Below are positions 13,069 to 64,000 of a stretch of 64,000 nucleotides of DNA, in pieces (position 1 is the stretch's first letter; every line of letters starts with the position of its first letter). The stretch spans positions 1 through 64,000 of the forward strand of contig JAHJIJ010000011.1 of assembly GCA_018823325.1 (NCBI GenBank), in the 5' to 3' direction. The translations under genes were made by a program, and so were the position numbers. The DNA comes from Alphaproteobacteria bacterium (lineage in GTDB: Bacteria > Pseudomonadota > Alphaproteobacteria > Sphingomonadales > Sphingomonadaceae). The notes under the pieces are model-generated. The model saw nothing but the letters and a program-made list of their open reading frames with translations, was not told where the DNA came from and did no database searches.

Positions 13069-13127
13069 TCAGGGCCGGCGCGTGCCTGTGGCGTGGGGAG
13101 ATGAAGAGGGCCCTTGTGACCACGCTC

Positions 13128-13217
13128 CGCTCCCTCCGCCGGTACGAGCCGGGTCAGGTTCAACGGGTCGGATGGCGCTACCCATCCCTCTCAGCCAGTC
13201 AGCAGGCTCCCCGGGGA
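13128..13217 (-). promoter_or_regulatory. TPP (THI-box) riboswitch
   Basis: Read on the minus strand, the leader has GGGGAGCC, then GGCTGAGAGGG, the central ACCCGTTGAACCTGA and the closing TACCGGCGGAGGGAG. These are the conserved blocks of the thiamine diphosphate aptamer in the right order. It begins just after the stop of the nuclease-like gene and lies about 75 bases upstream of the membrane protein start, controlling that gene and thiC. Confidence 0.95.
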
Positions 13218-13227
13218 AGGCGGCAGT

Positions 13228-24864: not shown

Positions 24865-25249
24865 CGTCACCCCGGGCTTGACCCGGGGTCCCGCTTCTTT
24901 TCACACAAGCGCGTCGAACCTGTCATGCCAGTCGGGATTGTCGCGCTCGAACAGCGCGAACTTCCATTCGCGCCGCCAGCGCTTGAGCCGTTTTTCATGG
25001 GCGATGCATTGGGTGATGTCGTTGCCCGGCTCAGCCCAGACCAGTCGAGTCAGTCCATAGCGGGCGCAGAAGTCCGATCCTGTTCCGCTGCGATGTTGAA
25101 GGACGCGCGCTGCAAGATGAGCAGTCACGCCGACATATAATGTGCCGCGATACCGATCTGCCATGATGTAGACCCAGCCGCCCTGCTTTTTCTCGCTCCA
25201 TTGCCCTATGCTCTGAGGAGCGGGACCCCGGGTCAAGCCCGGGGTGACG
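24865..25249. mobile_element. Candidate element: inverted palindromic arms around a GIY-YIG gene
   Basis: The left arm (24865-24897) and right arm (25220-25249) are inverted copies. Each arm is itself a hairpin, CCCCGGG-cttga-CCCGGGG. The 385-base unit contains nothing but the GIY-YIG gene. Its stop lies three bases from the left arm, and the reading frame can only open in or next to the right arm. Five other arm pairs in the window have the same ends but short unrelated centres of roughly 20-80 bases. The layout resembles a nuclease-bearing parent with short relatives; movement is inferred, not seen. Confidence 0.5.
24901..25236 (-). CDS. GIY-YIG family nuclease, with a doubtful 5' end
   Basis: The roughly 95-residue GIY-YIG core is intact. 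WVYIM and LYVGVT give the two halves of the signature, the conserved Arg is in LAARVLQHR, the Glu helix is AHEKRLKRWRREW, and the Asn is in RDNPDWHDRF. Such small proteins cut or nick DNA or branched structures. No in-frame ATG precedes WVYI. The frame given opens with TTG inside the repeat arm. An ATG at 25201 would give MEREKQGGWVYIM if the run of five T at 25187-25191 were four, so a one-base frameshift is likely. Flanking repeats suggest a selfish or repeat-maintaining role. Confidence 0.7.
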   Translation of the reverse strand: MTRGPAPQSIGQWSEKKQGGWVYIMADRYRGTLYVGVTAHLAARVLQHRSGTGSDFCARYGLTRLVWAEPGNDITQCIAHEKRLKRWRREWKFALFERDNPDWHDRFDALV

Positions 25250-62327: not shown

Positions 62328-62738
62328 GGCACCCTCCCTGTCTCGTTAACCGGGCCGGACGACAGCCAACTCCCATGCCGCGTCCCGCTCGGCGCATCAT
62401 AGATGCTGCTGATCGCAACGCCCGGAGTCGCGGGTGGTTCCATTTGTGGTGCGTGGGTCGTGAGCGGGTCATCACCCTTTTCCCCGTTCGACCTGAGCTT
62501 GTCGAAGGGCCGTCCTTCTTCTTCTTCGAAGATGGAGGAAGCAGGACAGCCCTTCGACAGGCTCAGGGCGAACAGTCAAGAAACGGGCGCCCCTTTACCC
62601 CCACACCTCCCGTCGCTTGCGCCAGCGCGCGCCCTCGCGTAGGGGCGGGCGCTGATTTCCTGTTCGTTCGCACAGGGTAGCCGGGGCCGAAATGTGCGCC
62701 CCGACCGGTGCGGACGCCATAGCGATTGCCGGAAGCCC
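62328..62738. other. Intergenic region upstream of ileS
   Basis: The 410 bases hold a TTCGACAAGCTCAGG repeat and the ileS leader. No gene is supported. Confidence 0.6.
62484..62575 (+). repeat. TTCGACAAGCTCAGG palindromic repeat, copy 5
   Basis: Arms CCGTTCGACCTGAGCTTGTCG and CTTCGACAGGCTCAGGGCGAAC are inverted. The flanking blocks shared by the longer copies are not conserved here, so this is a shorter or older copy. Confidence 0.7.
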
Positions 62739-64000
62739 ATGACCGACCAGCCAGACTACAAGAGCACCGTCTTCCTGCCGCAGACCGACTTTCCGATGAA
62801 GGCCGGTCTTGCCCAGAAGGAGCCGGGCATTCTCGATCGCTGGAAGGCCATGGACCTTTACGGCAAGCTGCGCGCCGAGCGGAAGGGCCGCGAGCGCTTC
62901 ATCCTGCATGATGGCCCGCCTTATGCGAATGGCGACATTCACATGGGCCATGCGATGAACAAGGTCCTCAAGGACATCATCGTGCGCGCGCAGACCCTGC
63001 TCGGCAAGGATGCGCCCTATGTGCCCGGCTGGGATTGCCACGGTCTACCCATCGAGTGGAAGATCGAGGAAGAGTATCGCAAGAAGAAGCTCAACAAGGA
63101 CGAGGTTCCCCCGCAGGAATTCCGCGCCCAGTGCCGTGCTTATGCGGACAAGTGGGTCGGCGTGCAGAAGGAGCAGTTCAAGCGCCTCGGCATCATGGGC
63201 GATTGGGAAGATCCCTATCTCACCATGAAGTTCGAGGCCGAAGCGGCGATTGTCGGAGAGCTTTTGAAGTTCGCGGAGAGCGGCCAGCTCTATCGCGGCG
63301 CCAAGCCGGTGATGTGGTCCCCGGTGGAAAAGACCGCGCTGGCCGAAGCCGAGGTGGAGTATGAGGACGTCGTCTCGACGCAGATCGATCTGGCGTTCGA
63401 GATTGTGGAAGCGCCGAATGCGCCCGAACTGGTCGGCGCCTATGCGGTGATCTGGACGACGACCCCGTGGACGATCCCTGTGAACCAGGCGATCGCTTAT
63501 GGGGAGGATATTGAGTATGGGCTCTATGAAGTCGGCCTTGGCGCAAGTGGCGAGGGGAATGCTGATCTTGAATCCGCACAAGATCGCCACCCTCTCGGCC
63601 GCTTCTTCGGTCGGAAGCTGCTTATCGCCACGGAGCTGGAAAAAGCTCTTCGCGACCGGGTCGATAATTCGCTGTCTGCCATGCCTGACGGCGCACGGCC
63701 ACGCATTGCGCTCTTTCCAAAAGCGACGTTCAAAGGCTCCCAACTCGCCGGCGCCATCGCGCGCCACCCGATGTCCAATCTCCTCCGTCACCCCGGCGAA
63801 AGCCGGGGTCCCGCTTCTTCTTCCGAAGGCGGCGAAGGCAGCGGGACCCCGGATCAAGTCCGGGGTGACGTGGGTGGTAAAGGCGCTCTGTCCAATTTCT
63901 TCGACCGTCCCCGCCCGTTCATCGCCGCCGATCATGTCACCACCGATGCCGGCACGGGCCTCGTCCACATGGCGCCGGACCATGGCGAGGAGGACTTCAT
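62739..64000 (+). CDS. ileS: Isoleucyl-tRNA synthetase, 5' part, with repeat-derived insertion
   Basis: The frame is open to the window end (420 codons visible). It charges tRNA-Ile. The class I motif is HMGH at residues 68-71 in PPYANGDIHMGHA. YVPGWDCHGLPIEWK and IWTTTPWTIPVNQAI follow, then the editing domain with DAGTGLVHMAPDHGEEDF. Between SQLAGAIARHPM and FFDRPRPFIAADHV lie about 39 extra residues (346-384) encoded by a CGTCACCCCGGC repeat, in frame, including RHPGESRGPA and GTPDQVRGD. The gene thus appears functional with an insertion. The KMSKS motif and C-terminus lie outside the window. Confidence 0.95.
   Translation, partial: MTDQPDYKSTVFLPQTDFPMKAGLAQKEPGILDRWKAMDLYGKLRAERKGRERFILHDGPPYANGDIHMGHAMNKVLKDIIVRAQTLLGKDAPYVPGWDCHGLPIEWKIEEEYRKKKLNKDEVPPQEFRAQCRAYADKWVGVQKEQFKRLGIMGDWEDPYLTMKFEAEAAIVGELLKFAESGQLYRGAKPVMWSPVEKTALAEAEVEYEDVVSTQIDLAFEIVEAPNAPELVGAYAVIWTTTPWTIPVNQAIAYGEDIEYGLYEVGLGASGEGNADLESAQDRHPLGRFFGRKLLIATELEKALRDRVDNSLSAMPDGARPRIALFPKATFKGSQLAGAIARHPMSNLLRHPGESRGPASSSEGGEGSGTPDQVRGDVGGKGALSNFFDRPRPFIAADHVTTDAGTGLVHMAPDHGEEDF
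63786..63870. repeat. CGTCACCCCGGC double-hairpin repeat, copy F, inside ileS
   Basis: The left arm CGTCACCCCGGCGAAAGCCG continues to GGGTCCCGCTTC. The inverted right arm ends at 63870 with GGTGACG. The left hairpin has a GAAA loop instead of cttga. It lies wholly within the ileS reading frame without a stop codon. Confidence 0.9.

Follow-up and report, generated by a model that had tools for sequence, protein, structure and literature searches.

How does a palindromic repeat come to be translated inside an essential gene, and why at one particular place in the protein? This question is raised by ileS, encoding isoleucyl-tRNA synthetase, at the end of the 64,000-nt stretch of Sphingomonadaceae DNA analysed here (the window). 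With its ATG at 62739, the 5′ part of the gene (62739–64000, plus strand) fills the last portion of the window, which covers the first 420 codons; the gene runs on beyond the window end to a stop in the neighbouring stretch L039. A first-pass annotation had described a double-hairpin repeat at 63786–63870 that is translated without a stop. Indeed, codon 350 opens at base 63786, and no stop interrupts the frame either within the repeat or from there to the gene's end.

A translated REP dimer in the CP1 domain of IleS

The 85-nt element (63786–63870, plus strand; translated as RHPGESRGPASSSEGGEGSGTPDQVRGD(V)) is made of two CGTC-tagged REPs in inverted orientation, their hairpins facing each other and their tags at the outer ends (CGTC at 63786–63789, GACG at 63867–63870). 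The left REP (63786–63809, plus strand) has an 8-bp stem and a 4-nt GAAA loop; the right REP (63846–63870, carrying its CGTC tag on the minus strand) has an 8-bp stem and a 5-nt TCAAG loop, and the stem cells of both are all paired. The spacer between them (63810–63845, plus strand) has a centre that varies among carriers and ends that are common to them. Folded as single-strand RNA, the element reaches −64 kcal/mol compared with a mean of −35 (sd 3.6; z = −8.04), and none of 200 dinucleotide shuffles was as low. The CGTC at the left end is invariant in 13 ileS dimers, though the extraction pattern demanded it.

CGTC-tagged REPs have been described as dispersed repeats with a CGTC (or TGTC/CCTC) tag by a stem of 8 to 9 bp, a loop of 4 to 5 nt, and a frequent arrangement as inverted dimers; the same account places copies inside genes, including tRNA synthetase genes of Xanthomonas oryzae and of two sphingomonads, E. 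litoralis and S. alaskensis (Di Nocera et al. 2013, PMC3733652). The window element matches this description in its tag, stem, loop sizes, inverted dimer, and location within a tRNA synthetase gene and is a real intragenic REP dimer of this superfamily. The published REPs have an unpaired 3-nt tail that fits CCA; after the left stem, the window reads CCC and the related genomes G069 and G070 read CCA. An assembly artefact is ruled out by the presence of the dimer in independent genomes, several of them assembled in one or a few contigs.

Within the protein, the insert is located between HPM and FF-RPRP. Alignment of an empty relative to the solved IleRS 8c9e puts the site in a short turn after HPIYK and before the strand GDHVTTDAGTG, which we take to be parts of the CP1 editing domain. 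An AlphaFold prediction of the CP1 stretch, run without relatives, gave a mean pLDDT of about 31 to 31.5.

The flanking direct repeat and the empty joint

Two 14-mers border the element as annotated (63772–63785 and 63889–63902, both on the plus strand); they are identical at 12 of 14 positions, start 117 bases apart, and had been read as a duplication accompanying the insertion. A recent transposition of a mobile palindrome into the window's ileS, with a 14-bp target-site duplication, gains from the fact that none of 1317 other stretches of 50 nt in the window locus matches the left 14-mer at more than 11 positions, which places 12 beyond chance. Similarly, the best match after the element in G069 is 10, again beyond chance (null maximum 9 in 1157 stretches). 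Yet most carriers are without the repeat: in 11 of the 13 GAAA-type carriers, the best match to the left 14-mer falls within the null (9 in G070, 7 in G087, and 4 to 9 in nine more). In the annotated register, identity within the window's clade is 12 in the window, 10 in G069, 9 in G070, and 6 in G087. In addition, the window genome alone has T as the third base of the left copy, where its clade's other carriers read ATGGCC, so that part of the 12/14 identity arose later.

The duplication also clashes with the length of the empty site. From HP to PRP, the 164 loops that could be measured comprise 10 residues in 117 cases, 11 in one, and 13 in one, and are long in 45. It had been proposed that removal of the insert restores a normal joint; taking 39 codons off the window's 46 instead leaves 7 residues, a length seen in none of the 164. 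A cut between the conserved Leu and SNFF gives MSNL+SNFFDR, that is, 10 residues, which is the empty length, with a net gain of 36 codons. Eleven loops that failed automatic extraction and are not among the 164 (G092, G029, G053, G081, G078, G137, G146, G121, G098, G123, and G131) contain no recognisable repeat as read in the genus and family loci. Because the match is within the null in 11 of 13 carriers, the 7-residue joint is never seen, and the Leu/SNFF cut gives 10, we do not regard this direct repeat as the scar of an insertion, and a 14-bp target duplication was rejected as a general cause. A clade-specific duplication is a possible source of the stronger-than-chance repeat in the two genomes.

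Related REPs and the search for a transposase

Related REPs are dispersed in the window's own genome, as a mobile element would predict: the dimer as a BLAST query returned 39 rows, some of which are two strands of one place, and a pattern scan of the window found further REPs at 24865, 25225, 28426, 28544, 32926, 39780, 52658, and 52765. The other own-genome copies examined carry CTTGA-type loops as judged by eye, and the alignment ranges and identities of the BLAST rows suggest that the GAAA-type left half has no close second copy among them. The exact GAAA-type left REP pattern, which misses variants including the window's own form, occurs once, in ileS, in six carriers (G069, G070, G087, G071, G019, and G343), 4 to 16 times in G042, G025, G076, G009, and G088, and twice in G074. 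REPs and dimers are also present in the fetched loci, and one dimer of G013 (L322), not among the listed ileS carriers, begins with the window's left half.

PF01797 (Y1 transposase), to which the transposase search was limited, has no match in the window's own genome (a draft, 98.5% complete). Of 94 genus genomes, 23 have a match, and just 3 of these are among the 13 that carry an intact dimer. This agrees with the published view of CGTC REPs, described as mostly alphaproteobacterial, as having no dedicated transposase (PMC3733652). The dimer resembles REPINs in that two inverted REPs form one unit, and differs from these RAYT-associated elements (PMC3116915) in the lack of a PF01797 match in its own genome.

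The dimer is also found in three other species of the clade. Taken with the carrier counts, the empty-joint length, and the PF01797 distribution, this leaves a recent transposition very improbable. The earlier suggestion that a mobile palindrome had landed in an essential gene thus survives in part: a dispersed palindromic repeat does lie in frame in CP1, much as in Rickettsia, but a recent jump within this genome does not fit a left half with no close second copy among the BLAST rows and, in six other carriers, with its only exact copy in ileS.

One IleS loop is occupied by different palindromes

Of the 94 genus genomes, all but one yielded ileS (the exception, G026, is 60% complete and lacked an N-terminal ileS match), and we read the loop after HP[M/I] in each of these 93. 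Nineteen have palindromic repeats at this loop position. Intact CGTC dimers are present in 13 (G000, G069, G070, G087, G042, G025, G076, G009, G088, G074, G071, G019, and G083), a half-remnant in G003, a dimer inside a frame-broken ileS in G005, and an unrelated palindrome, PAL2, in four (G014, G073, G037, and G059). The loop of the other 74 contains no recognisable repeat and mostly reads HPMHxLGGFFA[KRE]PRP, G053 and G081 being among the exceptions. Relatives without the insert, for which the first-pass annotation had suggested looking, are therefore the majority of the genus; nor do the relatives all carry a dissimilar, non-repeat sequence of the same length, which by the terms of that annotation would have refuted it. 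The broken frames around the G005 dimer (L146) may be an assembly error or real; contamination of that genome is 7%.

PAL2 is itself a repeat. With the G014 copy as query, BLAST returned 21 rows in G014, 12 in G073, 18 in G037, 27 in G059, 57 in G241, 10 in G451, and 6 in G116, and its multi-copy state in the first six of these marks the PAL2 inserts as repeats rather than ordinary loops. The REP of G186 as query gave 75 rows in G084, 51 in G162, 38 in G432, and 26 in G390. As a side observation, three genomes match the repeat query nowhere but in ileS, where the repeat is possibly a relic or an imported allele: in G186 (one contig; L165) and G192 (L176), the sole match to the G186 REP is the ileS copy, found on both strands, and in G245 (L184) the two PAL2 rows are both the ileS copy.

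Other genera of the family use the same loop. A profile built from 13 carrier loops was run against 397 family genomes with an E cut-off of 1e-20; since it favours CGTC-type inserts, its 32 matching genomes (3 from this genus, the other 29 spread over 20 further genera) do not give a frequency. Of the 29, we read 27 loops by eye. They include REP dimers that differ in sequence (RHSREGGNP...DPRLRGDD and related forms), PAL2 in G241, G245, and G451, and further repeat-like peptides in G260 and G323, in G200, and in G297 and G135. When one genome per genus was taken, 5 of the 76 fetched carried a loop repeat (G162, G161, G159, G135, and G116); G130, which also matched, lies outside the fetched set. 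RNA folding of the 45 long loops gave z < −3 in 33 and z < −2 in 43, as against z < −3 in 4 of 180 control ileS stretches; for G456 and G463, whose loops failed automatic extraction and so are not in this fold test, the reading is by eye alone.

Upstream of HPM, REP-like peptides (RHSREGGNP/RHSRESGNP) also appear in a second loop, in 3 of 153 sequences: L113 (G084), L131 (G027), and L115 (G083). Two further matches to this pattern (G022 and G046) look like chance. From WTTTPWTIP to HPM, genus and family loci alike are hypervariable, both in sequence and in length; distant species such as G042 and G086 have similar versions of this stretch, as if loop modules had been exchanged.

The reading that we favour, at a probability of roughly 0.68, is that of an old 85-nt REP dimer residing in a permissive CP1 loop that is a recurrent landing site, its halves being renewed, or else constrained as DNA or RNA. 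The CGTC-tagged dimer adds some 36 translated residues to the editing-domain loop. Across the family, the site holds, at nearly the same codon, REP dimers of several types and at least one unrelated multi-copy palindrome. Most likely, the loop tolerates long hydrophilic inserts, such that insertions there survive selection and others are lost. The resident palindrome would be old and passed on or lost between species, with its hairpin halves either renewed by conversion or re-insertion, which may then be the cause of their low divergence, or under constraint as DNA or RNA and not as peptide. A bolder version, which we hold only tentatively and well short of even odds, makes one codon position of CP1 a docking site for palindromic DNA, either site-specific or privileged by selection, on which unrelated palindromes converge across the family, always in frame, and where hairpins are kept as nucleic acid, perhaps being useful in the ileS message or a preferred target.

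Descent and conservation of the hairpin halves

On an ileS tree built without the loop, the carriers are scattered: the three states empty, REP, and PAL2 need 15 changes. The sisters G083 (REP) and G059 (PAL2), joined with support 100/96, have the same flanks (PIANLL...SPLAEFFLRPRP) around different repeats. Against the favoured reading, carriers are more clustered on the tree than in shuffles; that is, eight finer carrier groups need 9 changes compared with a shuffle mean of 14.5, and 0 of 200 shuffles were as low.

Also against it, the ileS dimers resemble one another most. For all 13 GAAA-type ileS dimers the nearest sequence is another ileS dimer, with best scores of 69 to 79 (of 85–88), whereas the best score against 40 chosen genus dimers located elsewhere is 64. 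Likewise, the 12 best full-length matches in frame 0, the one frame considered, among 94 genomes are all in ileS. These similarities favour one old insertion, kept through inheritance or exchange, over a series of new insertions of the GAAA type, and they point to that type as a putative ileS-resident allele beside separate arrivals of other palindromes.

The hairpin halves are nearly frozen at third codon positions. Between groups of the 12 A–C carriers, the halves differ at these positions by 0.057 (left REP) and 0.021 (right REP), compared with 0.449 in the codons just before the dimer, 0.437 in those just after it, 0.279 in the N-terminal flank, and 0.411 in the C-terminal flank, low REP values that are partly ascertainment, since only recognisable dimers are in the set and both G003 (a half) and G083 (another left half) attest to decay and change. 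The spacer middle is highly variable. In the left REP, most changes are paired and alter the amino acid; these outnumber synonymous ones, with a difference of 0.072 at positions 1 and 2 compared with 0.052 at position 3. Stem cells are paired in 208 of 208 cases, the right stem being invariant in all 13 ileS dimers and two pairs having changed on both sides (4 cells). Between the window and its sister G087, both bases of two left-stem pairs differ while the rest of the stem is the same, as would be expected if one half had been swapped for another REP version. We read the frozen third positions as the probable mark of constraint or renewal at the DNA/RNA level, not of peptide selection, with ascertainment contributing.

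Much of this could also be had from one ancient GAAA-type insertion that was inherited, exchanged, and many times lost, its hairpins being under purifying selection as RNA or DNA, for instance in the ileS mRNA or in translation through CP1. Such a history would account for the mutual similarity of the ileS dimers, the intact pairing with its two double changes, and the third positions, and in the six genomes with an exact left REP only in ileS, a donor for renewal is not seen. It leaves the unrelated palindromes at the same codon unexplained, however; the covariation amounts to two pairs that could be swapped REP versions, and the exact pattern behind the missing donor overlooks variants such as the window's copy. 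We consider it on balance unlikely.

Alternatively, the added peptide may itself be useful, for example in CP1 motion or proofreading, palindromes being merely an available source of long hydrophilic loops. Although four of the six reading frames of the dimer are open, the same frame is nearly always used: of the 29 loops whose tag is readable by eye, 28 have CGT as a codon, the exception being G083, and this frame 0 yields a hydrophilic peptide. Most relatives do without the peptide, however (74/93 in the genus, 71/76 genera), the left REP changes amino acids more readily than synonymous sites, and the peptides of the different repeats have no obvious common feature, all of which makes a useful peptide improbable.

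Relation to known intragenic palindromes

An intragenic REP dimer of the CGTC superfamily, and the occurrence of such REPs in tRNA synthetase genes, are already known; what is new is that different palindromes recurrently occupy one IleS loop, and that the hairpin halves are frozen. In the published description of intragenic CGTC REPs, recB carries one at roughly the same position in two species of Xanthomonas, the sites being different otherwise (PMC3733652); here, one IleS loop is occupied in many genera, also by unrelated palindromes. A 144-bp palindromic element, RPE-7, is tabulated in the isoleucyl-tRNA synthetase of Rickettsia, where the orthologues all have the insert at the same locus and hot spots are not excluded in the account given (PMC3767692). 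The Rickettsia elements likewise are palindromes in frame in essential genes, and differ in being a different repeat; the likeness is one of published description. Among the titles and opening lines of abstracts in a collection with few subscription papers, we recognised no report of a hot spot for repeats in ileS.

Palindromes within genes tend to be regarded as accidents scattered here and there, in contrast with one loop that is repeatedly occupied. The IleS loop offers a natural series on a single protein scaffold, from empty to REP, other REP, unrelated palindrome, and decayed half, which makes it possible to test a preferred insertion target against tolerance and against upkeep as RNA or DNA structure. 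It could also help to find how CGTC REPs, for which no transposase is known, move.

Other elements in the window

The window contains no tRNA, and its only Rfam match at the gathering threshold is a TPP riboswitch at 13113–13223 on the minus strand. A second, different palindrome lies at 62486–62573, in the gap just upstream of ileS; its 39-nt arms are 87% complementary and of the type GTTCG..TGTCGAAGGGC / GCCCTTCGACA..GGGCGAAC.
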